DNA of 64,000 bases from an uncultured Alphaproteobacteria bacterium (GTDB taxonomy: Bacteria; Pseudomonadota; Alphaproteobacteria; Caulobacterales; Caulobacteraceae): contig CAIOSI010000017.1 in NCBI GenBank assembly GCA_903860975.1, forward strand, positions 62,001-126,000, given 5' to 3'. Below the pieces are notes generated by a model. It made no database searches and was not told the DNA's origin. It was given only the letters and a program-made list of their open reading frames with translations. The position numbers and the translations under genes were made by a program. Shown here one piece after another: positions 33,160-62,973 of the stretch; the first letter of the stretch is position 1, and the number at the start of each line of letters is the position of its first letter.

Positions 33160-34746
33160 TTAGATTTGCCGAGCTCGTCCCTCCCAATAGGGCGCCCGGA
33201 CTTTGTTGCGTTGTATCTTGCCGGCTTCGGAGCGCGGAAGCTCGGTCACGAAGTCGACGCTTCGTGGGACTTTGAAGGCGGGCAAGCTGATGCGGGCGTG
33301 AGACAGGATTTCCTGGGCGAGTTCGTCGGAGGCAGTGTAGCCCTCGTTCAGCATGATCACGGCCCGGACTTGTTCGCCCCACTCATCGTGGGGCACGCCG
33401 ACCGTTGAGGAGTCAGCGACGGCATGGTGCTTGATCAGCTCGTTGTCGACTTCCTGGGGGTAGATATTCACCCCGCCCGAGATAATCGTTTCGGCATTTC
33501 GGCCGGTCAGGAAAAGATAGCCGTCTTCGTCGAAATAGCCGACGTCGCCCATCGTAAAATAGTCGCCGACCCGGTTGGCCTGGGTCTTGGCCTCGTCCTT
33601 GTAATAGGTGAAGCCACCTGCGGGTGGGAGCTGGTGATAGATGCCGCCCGGCACGCCGGTGGGGCATTCGTTTCCCTGTTCGTCCAAAATCTTGGAGCCC
33701 AGAAGCGCAGGACGTTTGCCGACGCTGCCGGGCTTCTTCAGCCATTCTTCCGAAGAAATTACGAAGCCGGCACCGCCTTCGGAACCTGCGTAGTATTCAC
33801 TGAGCACCGGGCCGAACCACTCAATCATCGCCGCCTTGACCTCCGGCGGGCACGGGGCGGCACCGTGGACAATATAGATCACGCTCGACAGGTCGTACTT
33901 GGCCTTCACATCGTCAGGTAAAGCGAGCAAGCGCTGGAACATGATAGGCACCAGGTGCAAGTGGCTGACGCGCTTCTCATGCATCAGGCGCAAGACGGCT
34001 TCTGAGTCCCACTTGTCCATGAAGACCAGCTCGCAACCCGCGCCCATGGCCCCACGCACGTCAAAGGCCAGCGGGGCGGCGTGATAGGCGGGCCCAGCGC
34101 ACAGCTGCACCGATGTCTCATGGTCGTATCCGCGCAGGGCATAGAGGCCCTGCACCGCCACCACAGGCTGGGCGCGATAGACGCCCTTGGGGCGCCCCGT
34201 TGTTCCCGACGTGTACATCATCTGGTTGCCCAGAACGGGATCGTCAATGTCGGCGCCGTCGAATTGAGCGAGCGTGGAGTCATAGTCGAGGAAGCCCGGG
34301 ATCGGCGCTCCAATGGCGATTTTCACCTGCACGTTCGGGCAATGGGAGATCGCAGCTTCTGAGGCGCTGACGCGGTTCTCGCAGAATACCGCCTTGGCCT
34401 CGCAGTCGTTGACGATGTAGGCGATCTCGTCGGCGGTAAGGTGCCAGTTGACCGGGGTGATCCGCCACCCGGCACGCTGGCATGCCGATAGGACTTCGAC
34501 GAACTCCGCGCGGTTGGAACAGACCAGCGCGACCGCGTCGCCGGCCTTGAGGCCGTGCTGACGGAGCAGGCGCACGATCCGATTGGCCTGCGCATTGATC
34601 TTTCCCCAGGTATGAACCTTTCCGTCCGGATCATGGATGAAAGTTGCGTTGGGTTTGAGGTCGGCCCACACAGCGGTGGTCATGCCGTTCACGGCAGCAG
34701 CGCCCAGCCGGTCGTCGAGGCTCAAGCGATCCTTCAGGTCTTCCAT
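33160..34746 (-). CDS. Acyl-CoA synthetase, AMP-binding family
   Basis: 528 residues from the ATG at 34746, after GGAGG; the frame open to 34845 is a 5' extension without support. Adenylation motifs: MYTSGTTGRPKGVYR (A3), YYAGSEGGAGF (A5), FTMGDVGYFDEDGYLFLTGR (A7) and the C-terminal Lys in RSEAGKIQRNKVR (A10). It activates a carboxylic acid to its CoA thioester. It resembles the FadD branch used for steroid or terpenoid acids in alphaproteobacteria; the exact substrate is unknown. Confidence 0.94.
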   Translation of the reverse strand: MEDLKDRLSLDDRLGAAAVNGMTTAVWADLKPNATFIHDPDGKVHTWGKINAQANRIVRLLRQHGLKAGDAVALVCSNRAEFVEVLSACQRAGWRITPVNWHLTADEIAYIVNDCEAKAVFCENRVSASEAAISHCPNVQVKIAIGAPIPGFLDYDSTLAQFDGADIDDPVLGNQMMYTSGTTGRPKGVYRAQPVVAVQGLYALRGYDHETSVQLCAGPAYHAAPLAFDVRGAMGAGCELVFMDKWDSEAVLRLMHEKRVSHLHLVPIMFQRLLALPDDVKAKYDLSSVIYIVHGAAPCPPEVKAAMIEWFGPVLSEYYAGSEGGAGFVISSEEWLKKPGSVGKRPALLGSKILDEQGNECPTGVPGGIYHQLPPAGGFTYYKDEAKTQANRVGDYFTMGDVGYFDEDGYLFLTGRNAETIISGGVNIYPQEVDNELIKHHAVADSSTVGVPHDEWGEQVRAVIMLNEGYTASDELAQEILSHARISLPAFKVPRSVDFVTELPRSEAGKIQRNKVRAPYWEGRARQI

Positions 34747-34892
34747 TCGAAATCCTCCGGGGCGCCTCACGATGAACGGCGCACAACAATGCTCTTGGAG
34801 GCTCTGGAAGGCGCGATGAAATGATCCGCGTCTTTTGTGGTCCAAGGCCTCCCCGACACCATCACACGAGACAAAGCAGGCGACAATTGGGA

Positions 34893-38622: not shown

Positions 38623-39306
38623 GTGAACCATTTCCAAAACAGCTTCGTGCGCGTTGCGCTGATCCTGCTTGCGCCGCTGATTTTAGCCGGCTGCGGCATC
38701 AATACCATTCCGACGAAGGAAGAGGCTGCCAAAGCGAAGTGGGCAGAGGTCCAAAACCAGTACCAGCGTCGCAGCGATTTGATCCCGAACCTGGTCAATA
38801 CCGTCAAGGGTTACGCCGCCCAGGAAAAGAGCACCTTAGTTGAAGTGACTGAGGCCCGGGCGTCGGCCACCCAGGTCAAGGTCGATGCCTCAACGATCAC
38901 CAATCCAGCTCAGTTCCAGCAGTACGCCCAGGCCCAGGACAAGTTGTCTGGGGTGCTTGGCCGCCTGATGATGATCCAGGAGAAGTACCCTGATCTGAAG
39001 TCGAATGAGAACTTTATGGCGCTACAAAGCCAGCTGGAGGGCACCGAGAACCGGATCGCTATCTCGCGCCGCGACTACAATGACAGCGTCCAGGATTTCA
39101 ACACGACGCTCAGGACCTTCCCGCAGATCTTTTGGGCCAAGACCGCCTACTCGGGCTCTAAGCCAATGGTCCTATTCACGGCGACGCAGTCGGCCCAGTC
39201 GGCACCGACGGTCAGCTTTGATACATCGCCGCCACCGCCGCCCTCTGGCGTTACGCCCGCCAGCCCGGCGCTGGCCGCGCCCATTCCATCCCCGGCGACG
39301 AAGTGA
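38623..39306 (+). CDS. lemA: LemA family lipoprotein
   Basis: 227 residues, GTG start after GGGGGAG. The N-terminus carries a lipobox, ILAGC, with C24 as the lipid site, and the LemA coiled coil follows (WAEVQNQYQRRSDLIPNLVN, then VKGYAAQEKSTLVEVTEARA). LemA proteins form helical bundles in the inner membrane and pair with TPM proteins. A Pro/Ala-rich tail of ~30 residues (SPPPPPSGVTPASPALAAP) is an addition to the usual length. The gene heads the operon and overlaps the next by 4 bases. Confidence 0.92.
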   Translation: MNHFQNSFVRVALILLAPLILAGCGINTIPTKEEAAKAKWAEVQNQYQRRSDLIPNLVNTVKGYAAQEKSTLVEVTEARASATQVKVDASTITNPAQFQQYAQAQDKLSGVLGRLMMIQEKYPDLKSNENFMALQSQLEGTENRIAISRRDYNDSVQDFNTTLRTFPQIFWAKTAYSGSKPMVLFTATQSAQSAPTVSFDTSPPPPPSGVTPASPALAAPIPSPATK

Positions 39307-40112
39307 TCAACGCGTTGCACGCCCTCCTCCGACGCGGAGGAGGGCTGCTGGCCACCACGCTGGCTTTGTTTGCGATCGCGAGCGTCGCCTGCGCAGCGGT
39401 TCCAAAATTCCCGTCGCTGAGTGGCAGGGTGGTCGATGACGCCCACGTATTGTCGCCGACGACCGTCCAGAAGCTTGACGGCGAGCTTGCTAACCTCGAG
39501 GCCCAGACCGGGCGCCAGTTGGTCGTCGCCACCGTGCCCGACCTCCAGGGCCACGAAATCGAAGACTACGGCTATCAGCTCGGCCGGACCTGGCAGCTGG
39601 GCAAAAAAGGCGTCAACGAGGGGGTGATCTTGTTGGTCGCCCCGCATGAGCACAAGGTTCGAATTGAAGTTGGCTACGGTCTAGAGCCGTTGCTGACCGA
39701 CGCGCTGACCAGCGTCATTCTGCAGCAGAAAATCTTGCCGCAGTTCAAGCAGGGCCACATGGAGCAGGGTGTGGTTGATGGTGCCGAGGCGCTGATCACC
39801 CAGCTGGCGTTGCCGGAAGATCAGGCGAAAGCCAATGTCGCCCGGGCGTCTGCTCAGTCCGTTCAGGTCCATGACAATGGTGGGATGCGGCCGCATATCC
39901 CGGTCTTCCTCATCCTGCTGATCGTCTTCTGGGTCATTTCTAGCCTGCTGAGGCGCGGCGGCGGTGGCCTATGGTGGCTGCCCTTCCTGTTTATGGGGGG
40001 CGGCCGCGGCGGAGGGTGGGGCGACGGCGGCGCGGGCGGACTTGGCGGTGGCGGCGGGTTCTCCGGCGGCGGAGGCTCGTTTGGTGGTGGTGGTTCATCG
40101 GGGAGTTGGTGA
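39303..40112 (+). CDS. TPM domain protein (YgcG-like), membrane-anchored
   Basis: 269 residues, GTG start overlapping the lemA stop. A signal or anchor helix (TTLALFAIASVACAAVPKF) precedes a TPM domain (LSGRVVDDAHVLSPTTVQKL ... WQLGKKGVNEGVILLVAP). One membrane helix (FLILLIVFWVISSLL) and a long Gly/Ser-rich end (GGGGFSGGGGSFGGGGSSG) follow. This is the standard partner of LemA, thought to act in membrane protein quality or photosystem-like assembly. The next gene starts in its stop codon. Confidence 0.92.
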   Translation: MINALHALLRRGGGLLATTLALFAIASVACAAVPKFPSLSGRVVDDAHVLSPTTVQKLDGELANLEAQTGRQLVVATVPDLQGHEIEDYGYQLGRTWQLGKKGVNEGVILLVAPHEHKVRIEVGYGLEPLLTDALTSVILQQKILPQFKQGHMEQGVVDGAEALITQLALPEDQAKANVARASAQSVQVHDNGGMRPHIPVFLILLIVFWVISSLLRRGGGGLWWLPFLFMGGGRGGGWGDGGAGGLGGGGGFSGGGGSFGGGGSSGSW

Positions 40113-40813
40113 TGAAGGGCCTTACCGCCTCAGATCTGTCGTCGATAGAAGCCGCCGTTCACGCGGCAGAGGCACGCACGCGCGGCGAGATCTATTGCGT
40201 CGTAACCGAAGAGAGCTCGCACTATTCCGAGACGCCGCTCGCCTGGGCGGCAGGTATTGCGCTGCTTGGCCCTGCCGTGCTGCTGGTGGCTGGCGTGCAG
40301 GTTACAATCCCCGATTTGTTCACAACCTGGAGCGCCTATGACGTCAGTGCGGCCATGGGGCGTGCGGTCCGCAATGCCCTGATTGGGGCTATTGTTGTTC
40401 AAGGCGTGCTGTTCGTCGCCACCGCCATGATCGTTTCCATACCGGTGGTTCATCGGGCCCTGACGCCGCGCAGCCTGAAGCGCCATCGGGTTCGACGGCG
40501 CGCCGTTGAGCACTTCGCGGCCAAGAATCTGCATATGACCCGTGAGCGGACGGGGTTGATGATCTTCGTGTCGCTTGGCGAGCGGATGGCCGAACTGATC
40601 GCTGACGATGGCATTGCCGAACATGTGGATGCGCACGTCTGGGACAAGGCCATGGCGGCGTTGACAGAAGAGCTGAAGGTTGGGCGCGTAGAGCAGGGCT
40701 TCGAGGCGGCCATCAGGCTTTGCGCGGACGTTTTGGCTGAAAGGTTTCCGGCTCGTGCGGGCGACAATCCGAACGAGATTCCGGACGCCGTAGTCGTCCT
40801 TCCGAGGCCTTGA
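40112..40813 (+). CDS. TPM domain membrane protein, third gene of the LemA operon
   Basis: 233 residues from the ATG at 40112, sharing one base (TGATG) with the previous stop. The first part, LTASDLSSIEAAVHAAEARTRGEIYCVV, is the beginning of a TPM phosphatase-like domain interrupted by two membrane helices (ALLGPAVLLVAGVQ and LIGAIVVQGVLFVATAMIV). The second half, LHMTRERTGLMIFVSLGERM, completes the domain. LemA-TPM-TPM trios are common in Caulobacterales. No strong terminator follows, though a 10-bp palindrome AGACGCGTCT lies just beyond the stop. Confidence 0.88.
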   Translation: MKGLTASDLSSIEAAVHAAEARTRGEIYCVVTEESSHYSETPLAWAAGIALLGPAVLLVAGVQVTIPDLFTTWSAYDVSAAMGRAVRNALIGAIVVQGVLFVATAMIVSIPVVHRALTPRSLKRHRVRRRAVEHFAAKNLHMTRERTGLMIFVSLGERMAELIADDGIAEHVDAHVWDKAMAALTEELKVGRVEQGFEAAIRLCADVLAERFPARAGDNPNEIPDAVVVLPRP

Positions 40814-41033
40814 GACGCGTCTTCAGGCGATCGGTCAAACGCCTGACGCTGTTTGGTCGCGCAAAAACCCCCGATGGATGCTGCAATCTCGCGGGTCCAT
40901 TTTGCGGCAAAAGGGCCCTCGCCATGAAGTGTGGCGTGCCTTCCAATCATTAGGTAGTTTAACCACATTACGCTCTTTCCTTGCCGCGACGACCGGCTCG
41001 GCTTTAAACTTCGGAAAACGGGAGGATCGCCGC

Positions 41034-41498
41034 ATGGCTTTCAAGCTGAACGTCAATGGAAAGGTCCTGGAGGCCGATGTCGATCCGGATACTCCGCTGC
41101 TGTGGACCCTGCGCGATACCCTTGGGATCCTCGGGCCCAAATTCGGCTGTGGAGTCGCCCAGTGCGGCGCCTGCACGGTGCACATCGATGGCGTTGCCAA
41201 GCGTAGCTGCGTTCTACCGGTGTCCGCCGTGGGTTCAGCTCAGGTCACGACGATCGAGGCCATGGAGCACCACCCAATCGGCAAGAAGGTGCAGGCCGCC
41301 TGGATGAATCTGGACGTGGCTCAGTGTGGTTATTGCCAGCCCGGTCAGATCATGGCGGCGACGGCGCTGCTGGCCAAGACGCCCAAGCCAACAGACGCCG
41401 ACATCGACTCGGCGATGACCAATATTTGCAGGTGCGCGACCTACACGCGCATCCGCGCAGCGATCAAGCAGGCCTCTGGCCAGCACGAGAAGGCGTAG
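41034..41498 (+). CDS. iorA: 2Fe-2S subunit of molybdenum hydroxylase (IorA-like)
   Basis: 154 residues from the ATG at 41034, after GGAGGA; the upstream open frame is unused. Two 2Fe-2S clusters are plain: the plant-type GCGVAQCGACTVH near residue 40, and the C-terminal set CGYCQPGQIM ... NICRCATYTRIR. It passes electrons from the molybdopterin subunit encoded 5 bases later. IorAB was named for isoquinoline 1-oxidoreductase, but most homologues are periplasmic aldehyde or N-heterocycle dehydrogenases. Confidence 0.93.
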   Translation: MAFKLNVNGKVLEADVDPDTPLLWTLRDTLGILGPKFGCGVAQCGACTVHIDGVAKRSCVLPVSAVGSAQVTTIEAMEHHPIGKKVQAAWMNLDVAQCGYCQPGQIMAATALLAKTPKPTDADIDSAMTNICRCATYTRIRAAIKQASGQHEKA

Positions 41499-41503
41499 TC
41501 GTC

Positions 41504-43693
41504 ATGACCCTCCAACTCACCGGCGCCTCTAGGCGCGATCTCCTCAAAGCCTCCGTGATCGGCGGCGGCCTGGTGCTGTCATTCTCGATCGCTGCGAAGG
41601 CCGAAGCTGCGGCTGGCTCTGGCGCCCAAGCGCTGAATGCCTTCGTCCGTGTGGCGCCTGACGGCATCGTCACGATCATGGGGAAAAACCCAGAGATCGG
41701 TCAGGGCATCAAGACCTCCTTGCCGATGATCATCGCTGAAGAGTTGGACGTGCCGTGGGAGAACGTCAGGATCGAACAAGCCGACTGCGAGCCCAAGCTC
41801 TACGGCTCCCAATTCGCCGGTGGCAGCATGGCGACGCCCATGAACTGGGACGATCTGCGCAAAGTGGGCGCGGTCGCGCGCGCCATGTTGGTGAGCGCTG
41901 CAGCGACGGCGTGGAACTGCCCGTCGGGTGATTGCAAAACCGATGCTGGACATGTGATCCACGCCTCCACTGGCCGCAAAGCAAGCTACGGCTCGCTCGT
42001 TGGTCTGTGTGCGGGCGTTGCAGCCCCAGACCCCAAGACGGTCGTGCTGAAAAATCCCAAAGACTACAAAATCATAGGCAAGGCCAAACCGCAGTACGAC
42101 ACGGGCAAGATTGTCACTGGCCAGCCGTTGTTCGGCATTGATGTCCGCGTTCCCGGCATGCTCTTCGCTACTTTTGAGAAGTCGCCTGTCTTCGGTGCCA
42201 AGGTCGCTTCGGCGGACCTTGATGCGGCGCGGGCGGTCAAGGGGGTGCGAAAAGTCTTCGTGGTCGAAGGCGGCAGCCGCCTCGATGGCCTGCAACCCGG
42301 CGTAGCGGTGGTCGGCGATACCTGGTGGGCGGCACGTAAGGGGCGCAACCAGCTGAAAACGAAATGGGCGGACCATCCGACGTCCAAGCAAAGTTCGGCC
42401 GGTTACGACAAGCGCGCCGCCGAGCTAAATGCCGGCTCGCCGATGCAGAGCCTGCGCAAGGACGGTGATGTCGAAGGCGCGCTGAAGGGCGCGGCCAAGA
42501 CGCTTGAGGCGGCCTATTCCTATCCGTTCCTCAGCCACGCGCCGTTGGAGCCACAAAATACGACGGCTCACTTCAAAGACGGCAAGATGGAAATCTGGGC
42601 TCCGAGCCAAAACCCAGAGCCAGGTCGACAGCTGGTGGCCTCGACGCTGGGGATCAAGCCCGAGGATATTACGGTCCACATGACCCGTTGCGGCGGCGGT
42701 TTCGGCCGGCGTCTGTCGAACGACTACATGGTGGAAGCGGCCTGGATCGCGCGGGAGACTGGAGCGCCGGTCAAGCTTCTATGGACGCGCGAAGACGACA
42801 TGCACCACGATCTCTATCGCCCCGCCGGTTATCACTTCTTCAAAGGCGGCGTGGATGCGAAGGGCAACGTGGTCGCTTGGCAGGACCACTTCGTGACGTT
42901 TGGCGACGGGGCCAAGGTCGCGTCGAGTGCTGGCATGGGTGCGACGGAATTCCCGGGCCGCTTTGTGCCGAACTTCAAGATCGACCAGTCCACTATCCCA
43001 ACCGGCGTGCCGACTGGGCCAATGCGGGCGCCGGGCTCGAACGCCATCGCCTTCGTCAACCAGAGCTTCATCGACGAACTGGCGCATGCAGCGGGTGCCG
43101 ATCCATTGGCGTTCCGTAAGCAACTGCTTGGCGACAAGCCGATGGTGGGCGAAGGCCCCTCTGCCTACAACGCCGGGCGCATGCAAGGTGTGCTGGCTGC
43201 CGTCGAGAAGATGTCAGGCTGGGCCGCGCGCGGCAAACTTCCGGCGGGCACCGGCTTGGGCGTTGCCTTCCACTACAGCCACGCCGGCTACTTTGCCGAG
43301 GTGGTACAGGCAAGCGTCGCCCCCGCCACCGGCAAGATCAAAGTCGAAAAGGTGTGGGTCGCGGCCGATGTGGGACGCCAGATCGTCAATCCGGCTGGTG
43401 CAATCAACCAGGTCCAAGGTGCAGCGCTTGAGGGCATCAGCCACGCCCTCTACCAGAAAATCACTATCGTCGACGGCGCGGTCAAAGAGAGCAATTTTAC
43501 CAACTATCCGTTGCTCCGCATGGCCGATGCGCCACCTGTGGAGGTCAAGTTTGTGACCAGCGACTACCCGCCGACGGGCTTGGGCGAACCGGCTCTGCCA
43601 CCGGTGATCCCAGCGCTTTGCAACGCGATCTTCGCCGCCACGGGTAAGCGCATTCGAAGCCTGCCAATCGATACGAAACAGCTGAAAACCTAG
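41504..43693 (+). CDS. iorB: Molybdopterin-binding subunit of aldehyde/heterocycle dehydrogenase (IorB-like)
   Basis: 729 residues from the ATG at 41504. A twin-Arg signal, [20 protein letters not shown], sends it to the periplasm with its iron-sulfur partner. Aldehyde-oxidase cofactor motifs follow: [53 protein letters not shown] and [17 protein letters not shown], the last carrying the conserved Glu near the Mo. There is no FAD subunit and no adjacent cytochrome gene, so the electron acceptor is unknown. It hydroxylates an aldehyde or heterocycle with water. Confidence 0.92.
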
Positions 43694-44069: not shown

Positions 44070-47000
44070 GTGCAAAAGCTTCTAATCGCCAACCGCGGCG
44101 AGATCGCCGTAAGGATTGCCCGCACCGCTGCTGAGATGGGCGTGGCGACTATAGCCATTTATTCTGAAGACGATGCCGCCTCGCTGCATACCCGCAAGGC
44201 TGACGAGGCCTGGGCTCTGAAAGGGTCGGGACCGGCGGCCTATCTGGATATCGCCCAGGTGGTTGGGGCTGCGAAAGCCACAGGGTGCGACGCAGTGCAT
44301 CCAGGCTATGGCTTCCTCTCTGAGACCGCAGCCTTCGCGCGGGCCTGTGCGACGGCCGGATTGATCTTTGTTGGACCAACGCCGCAGACCTTGGAGCTGT
44401 TCGGCGACAAAGGGCGGGCCAGAGCGCTGGCCCAGCAATGCGGCGTACCGGTTCTACCGGGGTCGCAGGGGCCGACGAACCTCGACCAGGCCAAGGCGTT
44501 CTTCGCCGGCTTGGGCCCGGGCGGCGCGGTGATGGTCAAAGCCATTGCCGGTGGCGGCGGGCGTGGGATGCGGCCGGTGATGGAGGCTGGCGACCTTGCG
44601 GCGGCCTTCGAACGCTGCGCCTCGGAGGCCAAGGCGGCCTTTGGTAACGGCGATTTATATGTCGAGCAGTTCTTGGCCCACGCCCGGCATATTGAGGTGC
44701 AGATCGTCGGAGACGGCGCAGTGGTGAGCCACCTGTGGGACCGCGAATGTAGCCTGCAACGGCAGAGGCAAAAGGTGGTGGAGATTGCACCGGCCGACAT
44801 GCTGCCCATGGCATTGCGCGAGCAGTTGTTCGCCGCCGGCGTCAGTCTGGGACAGGCGGCCGGCTATGCAAGTCTTGGAACCATGGAGTTCCTGGTCGAG
44901 GGCGACCGTTTCGTCTTCATTGAGGGCAATGCGCGTCTACAGGTGGAGCATACGGTCACCGAGGAAGTCACGGGCCTGGATCTCGTGCGTCTACAGCTGC
45001 AGATCGCAGCGGGCAGAACGCTTGGTGACCTGCGGCTGACCCAGGGCGATGTGCCGACCCCGCGCGGTCATGCGGTGCAGGTTCGGGTGAACCTGGAGAC
45101 CATGGCGGCTGACGGCTCAGCCAAGCCTGCAGGTGGGGTTCTGACAGCCTTCGAGCCGCCTTCGGGCCCGGGCGTACGCGTCGACGGTTTCGGCTACGCA
45201 GGCTATCGGACAAGTGCGAGGTTCGACAGCCTGCTGGCCAAGCTGATCGTCCATGCTGGCGCAGGTGGGCTCAGCCGCGCCGTCGCCAAGGCTTATCGCG
45301 CGCTCAGCGAGTTCCGCATCGAGGGATCACCGACGAACATCGCGTTCCTCCAGAACCTGCTGGCTCGGCCAGAGGTCGCCGCAGGTGAGGTTCATACGCG
45401 GTTCATTGAACAGGAAATGGCAAAGCTGTCCGGGGCGATTGAGGCCCATCCGAAGCTCTATTTTGACGCCGCAGCGCGCGGAGCCGCCTCGGCCGTCGCC
45501 CCGCGCGTTGGCTATCAGGTGGATGCCCGCGACCCACTCGCTGTCCTGGCCTTAGGCAAGCAGGAGATCGAACAGTCTACCGACGATATCGAGCCGGTGG
45601 GGCCTGAGGGAACACGGCCTCTGCGTGCGCCGCTGCAGGGCACTGTGATCAATATCTCGGTCGTAGCAGGCGATGAGGTGCGCGTAGGCCAGGCGCTCTT
45701 GATCATGGAAGCCATGAAGATGGAGCACGTCATCACGGCCGAGGTTTCCGGGGTCGTGCGCCAGGTCACGGTCGAGGTGGGTGAAACCGTATTTGAAGAT
45801 CATCCGCTCGCCTTTCTCGAGGAAGCAGAGATCGCCAGTGACGCAGGTGTAGACGAAGAAGAGATCGACCTTGATTTCATCAGGCCTGATTTGGCGGAGG
45901 TATTGGACCGCCATGCCCTGACTTTGGACGCTGCACGGCCCGATGCCGTCGCGCGGCGACGCAAGACCGACCAGCGTACGGCGCGGGAGAATGTCGAGGA
46001 TTTGGTCGATCCGGGCAGCTTTGTTGAATACGGGCCCTTGGTGGTCGCCGCGCGGCGGCGTCGCCACAGCCTGGACGAGCTGGTCCGGACCACCCAGGCC
46101 GACGGCATGATCATGGGCTGGGCTTCGGTGAACGGCGACCGATTCACCGAGGATAGGGCGCGCACGGCTGTGCTGTCGTACGACTACACGGTTCTGGCTG
46201 GGACCCAAGGTGCCAACAACCACTGGAAGCTCGATCGTATGAGCGAGCTGATCCACCGTTGGCGGACACCAACCGTATTCTTCACCGAAGGCGGTGGGGG
46301 ACGGCCGGGCGATACCGAAGGGGGCGGTTTCACCCGTGGTTTCGAGTTCTGGGGCAAACTCTCCGGGGCCGTACCCCTGGTCGGCATCAATTCCGGCCGC
46401 TGCTTCGCCGGCAACGCCGCTATCCTTGGCTGTTGCGACGTGATCATCGCCACAAAGAACTCAGCGCTGGGCATGGGTGGCCCAGCCATGGTGGAAGGTG
46501 GCGGCCTGGGCGTCTTCCGGCCGGAGCAAATTGGGCCGATCAAAGTGATGCAGGCCAACGGCACCATCGACGTTCTGGTGGAGGACGAAGCCGAAGCGGT
46601 GCAGGCGGCTAAGAAGTACCTGTCCTACTTCCAGGGGCCGTTGACCGAATGGACGTGTGCGGATCAACGGCGACTGCGCCGCTCGATCCCGGAGAACCGT
46701 TTGCGGGTTTACGATATCCGCAAGGTGATCGAACTGATCGCCGACGTGGGCAGCGTGCTCGAGCTGCGGCCCAAGTTTGGCTTGGCGATGGTGACGGCCT
46801 TCATTCGCGTCGAGGGGCGCCCGATGGGGGTCTTCGCCAATAACCCGATGCATATCGGTGGCGCTATCGATTCGGACGCTTCAGACAAGGCCGCGAGGTT
46901 CCTTCAACTCTGCGAGGCCTTCGATATCCCGGTGCTGTCGCTGTCAGATACCCCCGGCAATATGGTTGGACCGGAGGCGGAGAAAACCGGCCTGATCCGC

Positions 47001-47423
47001 CATTGCTCACGTCTGTTCGTGATCGGCGCCAACCTGACGGTGCCGATCTTCTCGGTGATCCTGCGCAAGTCATATGGCCTGGGCGCCATCGCGATGACGG
47101 GCGGCAGTTATCAGGCCGCGATGTTCTGTGTTTCCTGGCCCACAGGAGAGTTTGGCGGAATGGGTTTAGAGGGCTCAGTTAAGCTGGGCTACCGCAACGA
47201 GCTCGCCGCCATTGAGGATGCGGTGGCCCGCAAGGCGAAGTTTGACGAGATGGTCGCTGCGGCCTACGCCAGCGGCAAGGCTATGGCGAGAGGATCGCAC
47301 CCTTCGCTCGACGACGTTATCGACCCAGCCGATACGCGCCGCTGGATTGTTGGCGGGCTGAAGGTCCTGCCACCTATAGCCCCGCGGACAGAAAAGAAGC
47401 TGCGGTGGGTGGACAGCTGGTAG
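44070..47423 (+). CDS. Acyl-CoA carboxylase, biotin carboxylase-BCCP-carboxyltransferase fusion
   Basis: 1117 residues, GTG start. Residues 1-~445 are a biotin carboxylase: ANRGEIAVRIARTA, VKAIAGGGGRGMRPV for ATP, and FIEGNARLQVEHTVTEE with E285, N287, R289. Residues ~505-585 are the biotin carrier, with K550 in EAMKMEH. Residues ~640-1117 hold both carboxyltransferase halves, including GGGRPGDTEGG and INSGRCFAGNAAILG. One chain carries out ATP-dependent carboxylation of biotin and then of an acyl-CoA, as in the single-chain long-chain acyl-CoA carboxylases. The usual ARLQVEH is preceded by EGN rather than EMNP, a mild departure. Confidence 0.93.
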   Translation: MQKLLIANRGEIAVRIARTAAEMGVATIAIYSEDDAASLHTRKADEAWALKGSGPAAYLDIAQVVGAAKATGCDAVHPGYGFLSETAAFARACATAGLIFVGPTPQTLELFGDKGRARALAQQCGVPVLPGSQGPTNLDQAKAFFAGLGPGGAVMVKAIAGGGGRGMRPVMEAGDLAAAFERCASEAKAAFGNGDLYVEQFLAHARHIEVQIVGDGAVVSHLWDRECSLQRQRQKVVEIAPADMLPMALREQLFAAGVSLGQAAGYASLGTMEFLVEGDRFVFIEGNARLQVEHTVTEEVTGLDLVRLQLQIAAGRTLGDLRLTQGDVPTPRGHAVQVRVNLETMAADGSAKPAGGVLTAFEPPSGPGVRVDGFGYAGYRTSARFDSLLAKLIVHAGAGGLSRAVAKAYRALSEFRIEGSPTNIAFLQNLLARPEVAAGEVHTRFIEQEMAKLSGAIEAHPKLYFDAAARGAASAVAPRVGYQVDARDPLAVLALGKQEIEQSTDDIEPVGPEGTRPLRAPLQGTVINISVVAGDEVRVGQALLIMEAMKMEHVITAEVSGVVRQVTVEVGETVFEDHPLAFLEEAEIASDAGVDEEEIDLDFIRPDLAEVLDRHALTLDAARPDAVARRRKTDQRTARENVEDLVDPGSFVEYGPLVVAARRRRHSLDELVRTTQADGMIMGWASVNGDRFTEDRARTAVLSYDYTVLAGTQGANNHWKLDRMSELIHRWRTPTVFFTEGGGGRPGDTEGGGFTRGFEFWGKLSGAVPLVGINSGRCFAGNAAILGCCDVIIATKNSALGMGGPAMVEGGGLGVFRPEQIGPIKVMQANGTIDVLVEDEAEAVQAAKKYLSYFQGPLTEWTCADQRRLRRSIPENRLRVYDIRKVIELIADVGSVLELRPKFGLAMVTAFIRVEGRPMGVFANNPMHIGGAIDSDASDKAARFLQLCEAFDIPVLSLSDTPGNMVGPEAEKTGLIRHCSRLFVIGANLTVPIFSVILRKSYGLGAIAMTGGSYQAAMFCVSWPTGEFGGMGLEGSVKLGYRNELAAIEDAVARKAKFDEMVAAAYASGKAMARGSHPSLDDVIDPADTRRWIVGGLKVLPPIAPRTEKKLRWVDSW

Positions 47424-47607: not shown

Positions 47608-48972
47608 TCAGTGCGGGACGTAGGTCCTAAGCACGTCTTCGATAATCCGCTCAAGCTGTCCCAGCGTGTTGCAGGATTTCGCCACGTGGGTGAAGCGTTC
47701 GTAGCGGTGCATGACGCTGTCGCCCTGACCCCAGTAGCTCACGGGTTCAGGATTGAGCCAGATAACCGCGCGGGCGCGCTGCTGGATCAGATGCATGAGG
47801 TCCAAGCGCGGGTCGGCGAAATTGGATCGCCCGTCGCCTAAGAAGATCACTGTGGTGTGGCGATCAACACCGGCCAGATGGTTCTCACAGAAATCCTCCA
47901 GCGCCTTGCCGTAATCGGTTTGTTGGAAGCCGATGGTTTGAAGGACCTTGAGGATTGCGCCCTCTACGCCGTTATCGTCGAGGATCGCGTTCACGGGAAT
48001 CAGGCGACCTGAGAAGGCGTAGGCGTCCAGGTGATCGACCACGTCGTTCAGACTGTAAAGGAAGGTCAGCAGGAATTGAGCTGCGGCAGCCACGGACTTT
48101 GAGACGTCGCAGATCGCCACGATAGAGGGCTTGTCGACCTTCTTGATCTTCCACTCGATCTCAAAGGGGACACCGCCGTGGGCCATCGATTTGCGCAGCG
48201 TCTTGCGGACGTCGAGGTGGCCCCTATTGGCTGTGTGTCGGCGGCGCGAGTAGCGGTCGGCCAGGCGCTTGGCCATCCTCTTGACCAGCGCCTGCATCAT
48301 CGCCAGGTCGACGGGATCGATGCCACCGTCTGCGTTCAACGCCTTCTTCGCCAGCATCTCCTCTCGCAGCGCCTTGCCGGAGCCTGAAGCGTAGAGTTCA
48401 TGCTGGCGCTCGACATAGCGTTGGGCCTCGCCGGCGAGCGCCTTTCTGGCAGCGTCCAGGCGTTCGGCCATACCGGCAAGTTCGGGCAGCTTTCGAGCGT
48501 TGGCGATGATCTGCTCGATTTCTGCAAGGCCCATCTCGTCAAGCAGGCGGCGGGTCAGCCGGCTGCGCTGAGTTGATAGGCGGATTTCGGCGACGCCTGC
48601 GCGCTCGGCGGCAGCTTCCATGGCCTGTGCGACGGCGCTGGCGTCGCCCTGTAGCAGCATCTGGGCGAGCGCTGAGTCCGCGATAGCGGCCTGTTCGCTC
48701 TCTGTTTGCGGCTGGGCTATGCTCTCCTCTGGCGGCGGCGGCAGGGTGATCTGATCGCGGGTGAAGAAGGTCTCAAAGGTTTCGTCAAACCGGATGACCT
48801 CATCGGCCGACTTGGCCAGCGTCGCGCAGAGGGCGTCTTTGAAGAGTTGGCGGTCGGCGTAGCCTACGGCGGCTGCGGTGCGCGCCGCATCGATCGCCTC
48901 GGCCGGAGAGACCCGAACGTCGGACGCCCTGAGCGCCCTCAGAAACGCCCCAAGTGTATGCTGCATGGCCAC
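47608..48972 (-). CDS. VWA domain-containing protein (CoxE-like)
   Basis: 454 residues. The C-terminal half is a von Willebrand A domain with the metal-site motif AICDVSKSV (D-x-S-x-S) and a threonine loop. The N-terminal half is helical with Gln/Ala/Glu-rich segments. CoxE proteins partner MoxR ATPases in insertion of metal or maturation of molybdenum enzymes such as CO dehydrogenase. It follows the MoxR gene by 5 bases. The molybdenum hydroxylase 4-6 kb away makes a maturation role possible but unproved. Confidence 0.88.
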   Translation of the reverse strand: MAMQHTLGAFLRALRASDVRVSPAEAIDAARTAAAVGYADRQLFKDALCATLAKSADEVIRFDETFETFFTRDQITLPPPPEESIAQPQTESEQAAIADSALAQMLLQGDASAVAQAMEAAAERAGVAEIRLSTQRSRLTRRLLDEMGLAEIEQIIANARKLPELAGMAERLDAARKALAGEAQRYVERQHELYASGSGKALREEMLAKKALNADGGIDPVDLAMMQALVKRMAKRLADRYSRRRHTANRGHLDVRKTLRKSMAHGGVPFEIEWKIKKVDKPSIVAICDVSKSVAAAAQFLLTFLYSLNDVVDHLDAYAFSGRLIPVNAILDDNGVEGAILKVLQTIGFQQTDYGKALEDFCENHLAGVDRHTTVIFLGDGRSNFADPRLDLMHLIQQRARAVIWLNPEPVSYWGQGDSVMHRYERFTHVAKSCNTLGQLERIIEDVLRTYVPH

Positions 48973-48977
48973 CCCGA

Positions 48978-49937
48978 TTAGCGCCTGTGCAGCAGCTCGA
49001 CGATTTGCGGTTCGACAGCGGTAATATCCTGCTCGAACTTCAGGATCACGTTCAGCGTGTCGCGCACCATGGCTGGCTCCAGGCTGTCGGCGTGCAGCAA
49101 GATCAGAGCGCGGGCCCAGTCGACGGTCTCGGAGATCGAAGGTGCTTTCCTGAGATCCAGCGTCCGCAGCGATTGGACAAAGGCCACCAGCTGATGCGTC
49201 AGGCTCTGCTCAATCCCGGGCACGCGCGTGGCGACGATCCGCTCCTCCAGAGACGCTTCGGGCAGCGGAATATGCAGGTGAAGGCAGCGGCGCTTCAGGG
49301 CATCGCCCAGGTCGCGGACATTGTTGGACGTCAGGAACACCAGCGGTGGTGTCTTGGCGACGATAACGCCTAACTCCGGCACCGACACCTGGTAGGCTGA
49401 CAGCACTTCCAGCAAGAAGGCCTCAAAGGCCTCATCCGACTTATCAATCTCGTCGATAAGCAGGACGCAGCCGTCATCCTGACGCAGCGCCTGCATCAAC
49501 GGGCGCGGTTCTAGAAACGGCTCGGAGAAGAACAGGTCGCCCATGCCGTGGAGGCGATCCATGGCCGCATCCATGTCTGGTGCGTCGGCCAGCGCCGCGC
49601 CCATCCGATCTTTAAGGATCTGGGTGTAAAGCAGTTGCTTGCCGTACTTCCATTCGTAAAGCGCCTTGGACTCGTCCAGGCCCTCATAGCACTGCATGCG
49701 GATCAGCGGATGTCCCAGAAGGCGGGCGGTGGATAGCGCAAGCTCCGTCTTGCCGACGCCGGCGGAGCCTTCCACGAGGATCGGCTTTTGCAGGTGCACA
49801 GCCATGTAGAGGGCTGTGGCGATCCGCCGTGAGGCAATATATCCGACACGACCCAGGCCCTCGACCAGAGCGTCCACCGATGAGAACGGATTGGCGGCTA
49901 TTCCAGCTGCCACCGGGTTTGAAATCGTCAAAGCCAA
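48978..49937 (-). CDS. MoxR family AAA+ ATPase
   Basis: Up to 319 residues. Walker A is VEGSAGVGKTELALS, Walker B is CVLLIDEIDKSDEAFEAFLL, and the sensor text is VFLTSNNVRDLGDALKRRC with the CoxD-like RCLHLHIPLP. It is a chaperone-like ATPase acting with the VWA protein encoded next. The start is doubtful: the longest frame opens with TTG at 49937 and has no good ribosome site, so the real start may be one of the next valines. Confidence 0.9.
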   Translation of the reverse strand: MALTISNPVAAGIAANPFSSVDALVEGLGRVGYIASRRIATALYMAVHLQKPILVEGSAGVGKTELALSTARLLGHPLIRMQCYEGLDESKALYEWKYGKQLLYTQILKDRMGAALADAPDMDAAMDRLHGMGDLFFSEPFLEPRPLMQALRQDDGCVLLIDEIDKSDEAFEAFLLEVLSAYQVSVPELGVIVAKTPPLVFLTSNNVRDLGDALKRRCLHLHIPLPEASLEERIVATRVPGIEQSLTHQLVAFVQSLRTLDLRKAPSISETVDWARALILLHADSLEPAMVRDTLNVILKFEQDITAVEPQIVELLHRR

Positions 49938-53441: not shown

Positions 53442-55013
53442 TCATGGCGCGTTGAGGTAGATCGGATTTCCGAGAACCCGCAGCCTGCCGTCTGGTCCGC
53501 GCACGTCGAAGCGCAGCCAGTGGCGTTGGCCATCGCTGGCGACCTCGAAGCTGCGCGTCTCATCCTCTCCGACAAGAATGTCTTCGCCCAATTTCGGTTT
53601 CAATCCGTCGCCCGCCACAGACAGTGACGCACCGGCGGCGTGGCTCACATGGACGCGAAATCGAACCATCGTTCCGGTTGGTGCGGCCAGTGTGTCGCCC
53701 ATCTCGGCGGTGCGACCGTCGGCTATCGCATTGACCTCTAGACGTTGGTCGTGGCTGCCTGTGATGTCGACGAACACATGACCGGCGCGCAGAGCAGCCA
53801 GGATCGCGGGCTGGGAGAGTTCCGTTGCGTGCACCACAGTTGTGGGAAAGCCGATCCCGGTCTTCGTCGTCGGGTCAATTCCTGCGTCGTGATTATCCGA
53901 GCCACCGACGGCGGTAATGCGGAAACCTGCATTGAGCCGCGCTTCCCAGAACGGAATTCCAGAGATCACATTCTCCGCGCCCCCCGGAAGTCGCAGAGAC
54001 CCGCCGTTTACGGCCTCGATCGCCTGGACCCTTGAGAAGTCGGTGTCCTTCGCGGTCCAGCCGCAGCCCATGCACGTTTCGCCCGACGGTTGACCGGGAT
54101 GATTGATCGACAGTAGGCCGCCTGCCTTTTCCACCTGGGTCTGAATCGCCGCCAGGCTCGGCGCGCGCGGTGAGCTGAGTTGGAACTCCATCGGGCCGGT
54201 CGGACCCCAGATGTTGGCGTGACCTTGGAAGGTCGTGAGCTCCCGGCCCGGGATCAGCAGGAGATTGTCAAAGTACGGAGCCAGCTCGCGCAAGGCTTGG
54301 TTTTGAGCCGTGTCGTTGTGATCGGTAACCGAGATGAAATCGAGCCCTCGCGCCTGCGCCGCTTGTAGGGTTTTGAAGACCGGACAGGGCACGCGAACGT
54401 CGCGTTGCGAAAGGCAAGAACCGTCGGAGTGGGCGGTATGCATGTGCAGGTCGCCGCGGTACCAGCCAGGGGCAGCCGTGATGGCCGAGGCGCTGAAGCC
54501 GGTGAAGCTCGTCGCGTGCTCGAATGTTATGTGGGCGATGTAATGGGCCTGAACCCCGACCCTCAGGTTGGGAACGCCCAGAATAAGTTTCCAGGCCCCT
54601 GGGGGTAGCGGCCCTGGCAGGTAGGACGGGGTCGCCTCTGAATCAGAGATCGTGAAGCTCTGCTTGTTACCCCCGCTCCAGCCGCGCAGCCGGACGGGGT
54701 CGCGGACGCCCAGGTCGATCACCGACTTCTGGTCCTTGCCGGTGTAGCTGAAGTCCACGCTGAGCCGGGTCGTCCCTGCCGGCACGATGAAGGGGACCTC
54801 CCGATAGTGTTCGTGATCGGCGCGGGTCATGGCACCGGTCAAGGTAAGGTCCTGGCCGATGGCGGGCGTGGCGAGGAGCGCGCAGAAAATCAGCGCGCGC
54901 GTTCTCCTGGCTCTGGAGAGCGGTTCCACTAAAAACCGCCAAAAGAGGGCACGTACCGACCTCACCACCACGACCAGCCTCTTCAATCGTGAAAGGCCCA
55001 CGCGTCCCTTCAT
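53442..55013 (-). CDS. CehA/McbA family PHP metallohydrolase, exported
   Basis: 523 residues. After a basic N-terminal stretch comes a signal segment (ALIFCALLATPAIGQ), so export is likely; the basic stretch suggests the real start may be downstream of 55013. The PHP metal site is DLHMHTAHSDGSCL, then FISVTDHNDTAQ, HANIWG and SINHPGQPSG, and DNHDAG. Homologues include carbaryl hydrolase CehA and other phosphoester or carbamate hydrolases. The substrate is unknown. Confidence 0.88.
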   Translation of the reverse strand: MKGRVGLSRLKRLVVVVRSVRALFWRFLVEPLSRARRTRALIFCALLATPAIGQDLTLTGAMTRADHEHYREVPFIVPAGTTRLSVDFSYTGKDQKSVIDLGVRDPVRLRGWSGGNKQSFTISDSEATPSYLPGPLPPGAWKLILGVPNLRVGVQAHYIAHITFEHATSFTGFSASAITAAPGWYRGDLHMHTAHSDGSCLSQRDVRVPCPVFKTLQAAQARGLDFISVTDHNDTAQNQALRELAPYFDNLLLIPGRELTTFQGHANIWGPTGPMEFQLSSPRAPSLAAIQTQVEKAGGLLSINHPGQPSGETCMGCGWTAKDTDFSRVQAIEAVNGGSLRLPGGAENVISGIPFWEARLNAGFRITAVGGSDNHDAGIDPTTKTGIGFPTTVVHATELSQPAILAALRAGHVFVDITGSHDQRLEVNAIADGRTAEMGDTLAAPTGTMVRFRVHVSHAAGASLSVAGDGLKPKLGEDILVGEDETRSFEVASDGQRHWLRFDVRGPDGRLRVLGNPIYLNAP

Positions 55014-55072: not shown

Positions 55073-56215
55073 CTACGGCGCCTCGTTCGAAAACACGATC
55101 GTGCCGGAGGCTGCGAACATGCCGCCAACGCCGTGGGCGATGCTGATCTTGGCACCTGGGACCTGGGCGGGGGCAATACCACGCATCTGGCGCACGCTCT
55201 CCTGTAGAGCGTACATCCCGTACATGCCCGAGTGCATGTAGGAGAGCCCGCCGCCGTTGGTGTTGAGCGGCAGTTTCCCGCCAGGCGCGGTGTTGCGGCC
55301 TCGAATGAATCCCGCCGCCTCGCCCGGTTTGCAGAAGCCGAGGTCTTCCAGTCCGTAGAGCGGAAGGTGGGCAAAGGCATCGTAGATCATCAGGTGATCG
55401 ACGTCGGAATGGCTGATGCCAGATTCCTCGAACGCTTTTTTCCCCGATACGCGGAAAGCCTTTGAGGAGGTGAAGTCCTCCATTTGGCTAACCATTGGCG
55501 TCTCGACGCTTTCGCCCGTCCCCAAAATATAAACCGGCTTTTGAGGGAAATCCTTGGCTCGCTCGGCGCTGGTCAAGATCAATGCACCACCACCGTCGGT
55601 GACCAGGCAGCACATCAGCTTGGTGAAGGGCCAGGCGATCATGTCGGCGCCCAGAACATCGGCGACCGTGATTGGATCTTTGAAGCTGGCGCGCGGGTTC
55701 ATCGCGGCCCACTCCCGCTGGATCACCGCCACATGCGCCAGGTCTTCGACGGTGTAGCCGCGAGCCTTAAGGTAACGCAGCACTGGGATCGTGAACATGG
55801 TCGGTGGGCCCATGGGGCCGAAGGGCATCTCGAATTGACCGGCCAGGCTTGAGGCCGCCCGGGCAAAGCCGCCGGCGCCGACGCGAGAACGTCCACTCTC
55901 ACCGTGCGTGATCAGAACGGTGTTGCAGAGCCCCTCGTTAATCGCCGCAGCCGCATGACGCACGTGCAGCATGAAAGAACAGCCGCCGACGCTGGTGCCA
56001 TCTGCATAGGTGGGCGTGATGCCCATGTAGTGGGCGAGGTCGACGGGGCTGATGCCCGCGGTGGCGACACCGTCGATGTCGGAGGGTTTGAGGCCGCAGT
56101 CCGCCATCGCGTTAAGCGCTGCGTCGGCATGCAGGCCGATCACGGAGACGTCTGGGATTTTGCCCATCTTGGTGGTCTCGGCCGCACCCACGACCGCGAT
56201 TGATTTCTGTTTCAT
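55073..56215 (-). CDS. Thiolase-like protein (SCP2/Ltp2 type)
   Basis: 380 residues with the fold of non-decarboxylating thiolases: GTSVGGCSFMLHVRHAA at the active-site segment, the glycine-rich NTNGGGLSYMHSGMYG, and IAHGVGGMFAASGTIVF near the end. The classical second Cys is not evident, as in the Ltp2-type retro-aldolases that split sterol or bile-acid side chains with a DUF35 partner. Its partner gene is directly upstream in the same operon, which supports that reading; standard thiolase activity is the alternative. Confidence 0.88.
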   Translation of the reverse strand: MKQKSIAVVGAAETTKMGKIPDVSVIGLHADAALNAMADCGLKPSDIDGVATAGISPVDLAHYMGITPTYADGTSVGGCSFMLHVRHAAAAINEGLCNTVLITHGESGRSRVGAGGFARAASSLAGQFEMPFGPMGPPTMFTIPVLRYLKARGYTVEDLAHVAVIQREWAAMNPRASFKDPITVADVLGADMIAWPFTKLMCCLVTDGGGALILTSAERAKDFPQKPVYILGTGESVETPMVSQMEDFTSSKAFRVSGKKAFEESGISHSDVDHLMIYDAFAHLPLYGLEDLGFCKPGEAAGFIRGRNTAPGGKLPLNTNGGGLSYMHSGMYGMYALQESVRQMRGIAPAQVPGAKISIAHGVGGMFAASGTIVFSNEAP

Positions 56216-61893: not shown

Positions 61894-62973
61894 ATGCTGA
61901 CAAGAGGCGATGACTATCCAATCCACCAAACGCCCGAACCGATCGCCTACGCGGGGTCGGATCGGAACTTCTACGACCGCTATTTCTTCAATGGATATGC
62001 GCCAGATGGGTCGGAGTTCGTCGCCGTTGCGTTCGGGGTTTACCCAGCGCTGAACGTCGCTGACGCCCACGTCTCGATTATCCGCGATGGGATCCAATAC
62101 TGTCTGCATGCCTCGAAGATCCTGGGGATGGAGCGGATGGAGCTCGCGGTGGGCCCGATCCGCATTGAAGTCATCGAGCCGCTGCAAACGCTGAAAGTAA
62201 CACTCGACCGCGCCGAGGGCCTGGCCTGCGAACTGACCTTCGAGGGGCGAGCCTTTCCCATCGAGGAGCCTCGCTTCACCTACCGCAACGGACCGCGGAT
62301 GTTCATGGATTACACCCGCCTGACCCAGAACGTACGGGTATCTGGCTGGACAGAGGTGGACGGCGTGCGCCGGCAGACTTCAGCGGGCTGGACCGGCACG
62401 CGCGACCGCTCCTGGGGCATCCGTCCGGTTGGGGCGCCTGATCCTCAACCGACGCCGGGCGGTGGCATGATGGGCTTTTTTTGGCAGTGGACGCCGCTCA
62501 ACTTCGCCGACCGCAGCGTCTTTTTCCACGTCAACGCAGACACCGAGGGCAAGCCCTGGAACACCAGGGCGGTGATCCTGCCAGATGGCGCGGGTCCAGA
62601 TGGAGGGTGGCATTCCGATGCGCCACGGATGGAAGAGGTCGCGATCAAGACGGGCACCCGGCACGCGCTGAGTGGGACGCTCAAGATCCCTTTGCAGCAG
62701 GGCGAGGCGTCGGTCCGGATCGAGCCGCTCAGCGTTTTCCTGATGCGCGGCATCGGCTACAGCGGCGAATGGCGCCATGGGGCGCTCAAAGGTGAATTGG
62801 CGATCGCGCGTGAGGATATCGACCTTGCCAAGACCGACATGGCCGCGCCAGAAAATTGGCATATCCAGGCGATCTCTAAAGCCGTGATGGAAATTCCCGG
62901 GGAAGCATCTCAGGCCGGGATCGGCATCTTCGAACAGCTGATCGCGGGCCCCTATCGCCCTTACGGGCTATAG
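61894..62973 (+). CDS. DUF7064/7065-like protein (CrtC-related fold), unknown function
   Basis: 359 residues without a signal peptide. Motifs such as NFYDRYFFNGYAPDGSEFVA, SAGWTGTRDRSWGIRPVG and FFWQWTPLNFADRSVFFHVN match a beta-rich family, DUF7064/DUF7065, that sits in steroid- and terpene-related clusters and recalls the lipocalin-like hydroxyneurosporene synthase fold. The reaction is unknown. It starts 112 bases from the P450 on the opposite strand, so the two promoters are shared and the genes may be regulated together. Confidence 0.75.
   Translation: MLTRGDDYPIHQTPEPIAYAGSDRNFYDRYFFNGYAPDGSEFVAVAFGVYPALNVADAHVSIIRDGIQYCLHASKILGMERMELAVGPIRIEVIEPLQTLKVTLDRAEGLACELTFEGRAFPIEEPRFTYRNGPRMFMDYTRLTQNVRVSGWTEVDGVRRQTSAGWTGTRDRSWGIRPVGAPDPQPTPGGGMMGFFWQWTPLNFADRSVFFHVNADTEGKPWNTRAVILPDGAGPDGGWHSDAPRMEEVAIKTGTRHALSGTLKIPLQQGEASVRIEPLSVFLMRGIGYSGEWRHGALKGELAIAREDIDLAKTDMAAPENWHIQAISKAVMEIPGEASQAGIGIFEQLIAGPYRPYGL

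Follow-up and report, generated by a model that had tools for sequence, protein, structure and literature searches.

We analyzed a 64,000-nucleotide stretch of DNA (the window) from an uncultured member of the Caulobacteraceae (Alphaproteobacteria; contig CAIOSI010000017.1, positions 62,001 to 126,000), which encodes an acyl-CoA carboxylase with biotin carboxylase (BC), biotin carboxyl carrier (BCCP), and carboxyltransferase (CT) domains on a single chain. Comparison of genomes showed that, at this very locus in some Phenylobacterium species, the same BC is joined to a CT which, judged from sequence relationships, comes from another lineage of single-chain carboxylases (SCCs). We consider it probable, with good confidence, that the window gene encodes an LCC/YCC SCC whose BC and CT halves are exchangeable in Phenylobacterium and whose linker motif, DPLAVL, is tied to the CT. 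The enzyme and its family are known; what would be new is that CT halves have been exchanged in nature, together with a covarying linker motif. Our search found no paper on natural CT exchange, on an acyl-CoA carboxylase from Phenylobacterium, or on the DPLAVL motif, which is a weak negative since the subscription literature lay mostly outside the search.

We looked into the pairing of BC and CT in 101 genomes of the genus (G and L numbers below are our handles for genomes and loci), four loci (L188, L230, L256, and L257) having been excluded before the counts. A BC at least 70% identical to that of the window was found in 52 genomes, including four partial matches. The CT was of the window type (at least 79% identity) in 41 of them and only 57 to 59% identical in nine, and the last two were without a CT match, their contigs ending at that point. 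BC and CT lay wholly or partly on separate contigs in five fragmented genomes (G347, G352, G357, G019, and G367) and were paired manually; G008 has a window-type CT and a partial BC, likewise of the window type. None of 42 window-type CTs was paired with a BC below 70% identity, and hence we found no reverse chimera. In four of the chimeric loci (L066, L067, L068, and L076), situated at the same place, the BC is 79 to 83% identical to that of the window, which is the level of orthologues, and the CT 57 to 59%. Their CT shares 77 to 83% identity with the CTs of L084 and L069, SCCs located at other places in genomes of the same genus (termed donor type), the BC of which is only 57 to 59% identical to the chimeric BC.

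A comparison of the two halves over 112 sequences singled out the same four loci: the 25 lowest residuals of 6216 pairs (z of -5.2 to -3.8) all matched one of the four chimeras with a window-type sequence, and on a two-sided index the chimeras reached 24.4 to 27.5, with a window-type mirror image of up to 16.9. No further chimera emerged among the 112 sequences, the next unrelated one attaining only 14.2. The tree of CT sequences recovered the window type as one clade (100/100) and the chimeras as another, next to the donor type; that of BC sequences placed the chimeras inside the window type. Approximately unbiased (AU) tests rejected a clade of chimeras and donor type (4 + 2 rows) on BC (p of 2.6e-6) and a clade of window type and chimeras on CT (p of 9e-6).

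The nine chimeric genes comprise seven intact single frames and the broken frames of G011 and G355, which are absent from the trees. Nucleotide identity over 30 codons placed the switch at residues ~631 to 650 in all seven intact chimeras, within a stretch conserved on both sides. Between these seven and 27 window-type sequences, we found no fixed difference in 450 BC residues or in residues 591 to 640 and 63 in the 477 residues of the CT side (641 to 1117). The dN/dS values were low on both sides of the switch in three pairs of chimeras (BC, 0.093/0.547, and CT, 0.077/0.506, for L076 and L067), and those of the window gene versus its same-genus orthologue L248 (NG86; BC, 0.087/1.0; CT, 0.059/0.891) indicate purifying selection on both halves. 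A single origin of the chimeric BC halves was rejected with the seven chimeras (p of 4e-7), the starred branches forcing at least four label changes, and the seven CT halves formed one clade (99/96). We therefore read these data as one joining of the halves, probably followed by further recombination between alleles. The partners of such an exchange do meet, since window-type and donor-type genes co-occur in G337, G376, and G326.

Some observations weigh against so simple a history. A single origin of the BC halves was not rejected with the four chimeras (p of 0.112). The windows of L068 covering residues 561 to 610, just before the switch, lean to the donor side, and the region separating BC from CT is thus not purely of one type. 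Residues 451 to 590, which contain the deletion of the motif, show nine fixed differences in 140 positions and a further 24 at which no state is shared, gaps being counted in both cases. Separately, we noted that L097, from a metagenome-assembled genome (MAG) of Phenylobacterium aquaticum, has a BC far from that of the window (70%) and a near CT (85%), a milder mismatch that may reflect another exchange or a fast-evolving BC.

We then analyzed the linker between BC and BCCP, a variable stretch with one conserved island, AG[AV][KR][IV]DxxDPLAVLx[HLY]G[KR], in which DPL was fixed by the search expression and the glycines at -7 (36/40) and +8 (34/40) were free. The motif was present in 27/27 window-type sequences, in 0/7 chimeras, and in 0/17 donor-type sequences, and the alignment showed that the chimeras kept the window-type flanks of the linker and lacked the motif block. 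In trees of 88 sequences (all seven chimeras, and otherwise rows below 80% identity), the motif changed 3 times on the CT tree versus 10 times on the BC tree, and the CT tree contained one clade with the motif in 39/41 members, the remainder having it in 1/47. Motif carriers, mostly MAGs, are labeled Pseudomonadota, Myxococcota, Binatota, Actinomycetota, and Chloroflexota. Among the sequences compared, DPLAVL was thus shown to follow the type of the CT and not that of the BC. That a motif adjoining the BC should track the CT is most simply explained by contact with the latter, and we infer that DPLAVL serves the CT, by docking on that of the window type or by positioning the carrier for it.

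Several results temper this proposal. A stricter expression recovered the motif in 25/27 window-type sequences (and in no chimera or donor-type sequence); a weak motif occurs in L165, outside the CT clade, and two members inside the clade are without it. Well-supported branches force only two changes on either large tree, so the difference of 3 versus 10 leans on weak branches. The AlphaFold confidence rose from 34 to 54 for the block of residues 481 to 490 and from 35 to 45 for block 491 to 500 when alignment A2 was replaced by A5, which holds motif-bearing members only; the motif thus stays at low confidence, and since block 461 to 470, outside the motif, gained more (32 to 71), the rise is no support by itself. 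These models are of a monomer, and docking is outside their reach. Residues 449 to 517 gave no Pfam match and no PDB match at an E value of ≤10.

The window protein is, by its sequence, a member of the known LCC/YCC family of single-chain acyl-CoA carboxylases. Pfam located Biotin_carb_N at residues 2 to 108, CPSase_L_D2 at 113 to 319, Biotin_carb_C at 337 to 448, Biotin_lipoyl at 518 to 581, and Carboxyl_trans (PF01039) at 632 to 1097, which gives the order BC-BCCP-CT on one chain of ~1100 aa. The lysine of the EAMKM sequence, K550, is unchanged in 112/112 aligned sequences and invariant in alignment A2 as well; also unchanged in 112/112 are ten BC positions that we take to be catalytic in E. 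coli AccC. The closest solved relative over the whole chain is PDB 4rcn (1089.8 bits), and 5fif (CT) and 5h80 (BC) match half the length. Foldseek aligned 4rcn along the chain and retrieved 5fif with a TM of 0.91 to 0.95 of the target; the VIA-align match list was taken up by the BC. An earlier sequence-only reading of the window had proposed a complete acyl-CoA carboxylase on one chain with K550 in the carrier, in a family that includes long-chain acyl-CoA carboxylases, and all of this is borne out. Its emphasis on the fusion as the notable trait was misplaced: a full single-chain gene was found in 105 of 116 loci examined (the other 11, cut or without a start motif, were left out of later counts), and such genes being common, one-chain fusion is ordinary in this family. 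At least 586 stretches encode a relative of the CT, single-chain status having been checked for part of them. The CT had a match at an E value of ≤1e-100 in 39/299 genomes sampled from the order and at ≤1e-60 in 80/101 genomes of the genus, and members of the family are plasmid-borne in Tistrella, Rhodococcus, Deinococcus, Paracoccus, and others. The closest named relatives among the matches listed are from Phenylobacterium, and the BCs of the same-genus genomes G371 and G324 are identical to those of L096 and L099, two records named as Phenylobacterium. As a side observation, the biotin motif of L091 (G119) reads EALKM, and neither this locus nor its near-copy L079 (G277) was matched by the EAMKM-type search.

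Could the chimeras be products of assembly or binning? The broken frames in two of the nine genes (G011 and G355) would fit, yet we hold this explanation to be very improbable, as nine genomes and seven intact frames share the same switch region and eight of the nine chimeras are flanked on both sides by the same genes, for a molybdenum hydroxylase large subunit and for a CoxE-like protein (the names IorB, and IorA for the iron-sulfur subunit, are those we presume for the hydroxylase). The ninth, G373, was found with IorB only. Moreover, chimeric genomes contain no second donor-type SCC at an E value of ≤1e-60, the second SCC of G387 being of another type. Nor do we give any real credence to a reading of the window protein as a pyruvate carboxylase or a urea carboxylase whose CT is unusual. 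Although its BC half scores high with models and PDB chains of both enzymes, the CT belongs to PF01039, and the two pyruvate carboxylase models stayed far under their cut-offs (584.5 of 965 and 513.2 of 1114.45). The sequence-only reading had named placement among pyruvate carboxylases as what would overturn it, and no pyruvate or urea carboxylase was present among the 44 distinct PDB sequences matching the CT half (E value of ≤1e-10). The pyruvate carboxylase identity was accordingly rejected.

What the enzyme carboxylates was approached through the other carboxylases of the genome and through CT residues. The genome also encodes split enzymes, namely an AccC-like BC, a PCC-type pair (beta chain at 844 bits to the PCC beta chain), and an MCC-type pair (beta chain at 783 bits to MCC and 812 to AccD1), which makes the single-chain enzyme a probable supplement to the housekeeping carboxylase. 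A third split carboxylase, on G000:C19 (L095:5392-9002), is a pair of the MCC/GCC type with weaker scores (492 bits to MCC, 440 to GCC). Since PCC-, MCC-, and MCC/GCC-like split enzymes are present, the likeliest substrate lies outside their range, and we infer an acyl-CoA of short to long chain, saturated or branched. In favor of the proposed biotin enzyme, the genome holds a single match to PF03099, the family of biotin and lipoate ligases, although the gene matched may encode a ligase of the lipoate type and not BirA. According to PMC7835884, an aspartate of PccB (D422) steers the choice of acyl-CoA. Both MAFFT modes align I1007 of the window protein with this position, and pairwise BLAST, in an uncertainty that weakens the assignment, shifts the column by one; the aspartate seen in PCC beta chains is replaced by I1007 with MAFFT and by A1008 with BLAST. 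Residue 1007 is I in 27/27 window-type sequences and Q in 7/7 chimeras, and the loop around residues 749 to 760 is six residues shorter in the window type, so that the CTs of the two types would probably differ in the acyl-CoAs they take. A promiscuous acetyl/propionyl-CoA carboxylase backing up the split enzymes is conceivable but rather unlikely. Two papers report a Pseudomonas-type LCC active on C2 to C16 acyl-CoAs (PMC6491548) and, with I at the position of PccB D422, the use of acetyl-, propionyl-, and butyryl-CoA in Streptomyces AccB (PMC7835884); the residue evidence is, however, only indirect, and a full PCC pair and an AccC-like gene are already there. We thus favor a saturated or branched acyl-CoA as the candidate substrate.

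The gene neighborhood offered another route to function. In 12 of 35 loci compared (L078 was excluded), the SCC gene is followed by a convergent CoxE-AAA pair, and IorB lies upstream in 11 of these 12, L061 holding only a small IorB-like piece. This arrangement could mean that the carboxylase acts on the product of the hydroxylase in one pathway, which we judge improbable because no hydroxylase is near the SCC in any of the other 23 loci, the distance between IorB and SCC varies from ~0.1 kb (G109) to 3.1 kb (G010), and the IorB and CoxE matches end 32 to 67 bp apart, with no SCC between them, in eight (G003, G005, G007, G016, G119, G154, G257, and G277) of the 28 genomes of the genus that were compared. 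In G013, the place between IorB and CoxE (L191:7406-7822) contains an in-frame remnant of ~140 codons from a window-type carboxylase, in which the BC start (to residue ~91 to 95) is fused to the final ~50 residues of the CT; this genome carries another SCC, of the donor type, elsewhere. The SCC-less junctions and this remnant identify the hydroxylase neighborhood as a place of SCC insertion and loss. The molybdenum hydroxylase context is thus a genus-level insertion place and not good evidence for a pathway, and the operon or pathway reading was rejected upon failure of the hydroxylase link. The sequence-only reading had rightly placed the gene alone downstream of the hydroxylase, and its "near" for the CoA ligase and thiolase genes was loose (9.2 and 7.6 kb). 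Among loci with flanks of 2.5 kb on both sides, a CoA ligase lies at most 2.5 kb from the SCC in 18/87 loci outside the Phenylobacterium group (four of the 18 being the plasmid loci that supplied queries), which fits a role following acid activation in those members, and in 0/14 judgeable loci within the group. A Pfam tally of nearest neighbors yielded no dominant partner (at most 5/71 upstream and 4/69 downstream). It relied on our own gene calls and a hand-picked sample (71 of 92 upstream and 69 of 93 downstream candidates) without short genes and near-copies, and it undercounts ligases because several Bradyrhizobium-type loci with an upstream ligase were among those omitted.

Based on family membership and conserved residues, we propose that the BC would carboxylate the biotin of K550 with ATP and bicarbonate, that the BCCP on its flexible linker would carry carboxybiotin to the CT, and that the CT would use it to carboxylate an acyl-CoA at the alpha carbon, which would yield an (alkyl)malonyl-CoA. 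A CT from another SCC lineage on the same BC should then alter the acyl-CoA accepted, with DPLAVL docking on, or positioning the carrier for, the window-type CT. More tentatively, SCCs at large may be evolvable two-module enzymes in which a BC-BCCP chassis trades CT heads by homologous recombination at the conserved seam RRRKTGQRTAREN and so switches acyl-CoA, DPLAVL being, in several phyla, a CT-specific docking site kept or lost with the head. If true, this would parallel, in nature, the acyltransferase swaps of polyketide synthases and would provide a rule for designing new carboxylases. Since the fused enzyme is known, the value of the system is that of a natural experiment, with the same locus, the same BC, a different CT, and a motif tracking the CT. 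The chimeras form a ready set for asking which part sets the substrate, where to cut and rejoin, and what the linker does, and the answers could inform the engineering of carboxylases for malonyl-CoA-type building blocks.

The features of the window are collected in Table 1. A scan for promoters and terminators gave no signal exceeding chance. The region 38623-43693, with LemA, two TPM-domain genes, and IorA-IorB, is a block kept in several loci of the genus. Two frames of 523 and 359 aa (53442-55013, minus strand, and 61894-62973, plus strand) had no Pfam match at an E value of ≤0.001.

TABLE 1 Features of the window (positions are those of the window; residues are those of the carboxylase)
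Feature	Position	Strand	Basis
Single-chain acyl-CoA carboxylase gene, 1117 aa, GTG start, one open frame	44070..47423	+	Open reading frame, Pfam, PDB matches
BC part, residues 2-448	44073..45413	+	Pfam
BC-BCCP linker, residues 449-517, mostly low confidence in both AlphaFold models	45414..45620	+	
Linker motif VGYQVDARDPLAVLALGK, residues 480-497	45507..45560	+	Motif counts across CT types
BCCP domain, residues 518-581	45621..45812	+	Pfam Biotin_lipoyl
K550, predicted biotinylated lysine in EAMKM	45717..45719	+	Invariant in alignments
Place equivalent to the switch point of the natural chimeras, residues ~631-650	45960..46019	+	30-codon nucleotide identity
CT part, residues 632-1097	45963..47360	+	Pfam Carboxyl_trans
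I1007, MAFFT-aligned to the PccB acyl-CoA-choice D	47088..47090	+	Alignment
Molybdenum hydroxylase iron-sulfur subunit (IorA)	40878..41498	+	Pfam Fer2_2
Molybdenum hydroxylase large subunit (IorB), true start maybe later	41324..43693	+	Pfam MoCoBD_1, MoCoBD_2
CoxE-like VWA protein, convergent neighbor	47608..48972	-	Pfam VWA_CoxE
AAA ATPase, neighbor	48978..49937	-	Pfam AAA_5; NCBIfam MadB under cut-off
CoA ligase, 9.2 kb upstream of the carboxylase gene	33160-34845	-	
Thiolase-like gene, 7.6 kb downstream of the carboxylase gene	55073-56215	-	Only Thiolase_C_1 match

Compared with known systems, the window enzyme shares the BC-BCCP-CT order on one chain and similarity over the whole length with PDB 4rcn, which we take to be the long-chain acyl-CoA carboxylase of Mycobacterium avium subsp. 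paratuberculosis and the structure of which was reportedly described by Tran et al. in 2015. In 4rcn, only ~13 chain residues (473 to 487) separate the two aligned stretches, and there is therefore no space for the DPLAVL block; the residue equivalent to 1007 is M, versus I in the window enzyme. Assembly as a homohexamer and a preference for long acyl-CoAs count as traits of the LCC/YCC family. PDB 5fif and 5h80 presumably represent the YCC single-chain carboxylase of Deinococcus radiodurans, which has the same domain plan. The D. radiodurans homologue L183 is 54% identical to the window protein in BC and 53% in CT and differs by a linker without the motif, Q at 1007, and an adjoining AMP-binding gene of the CoA ligase type; it is located on a plasmid, between this AMP-binding gene and a urease cluster. 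Split carboxylases of the PCC, MCC, and GCC types have the BC and the CT superfamily (PF01039) in common with the window enzyme but consist of two subunits, and the split CTs of this genome are only 27 to 31% identical to the window CT. PMC6491548 describes the long-chain acyl-CoA carboxylase type to which 4rcn belongs, as well as SACE_4237 of Saccharopolyspora erythraea, which by its description is, like the window enzyme, a single-chain multidomain acyl-CoA carboxylase and which, according to that paper, forms a homodimer and accepts no substrates other than acetyl- and propionyl-CoA.

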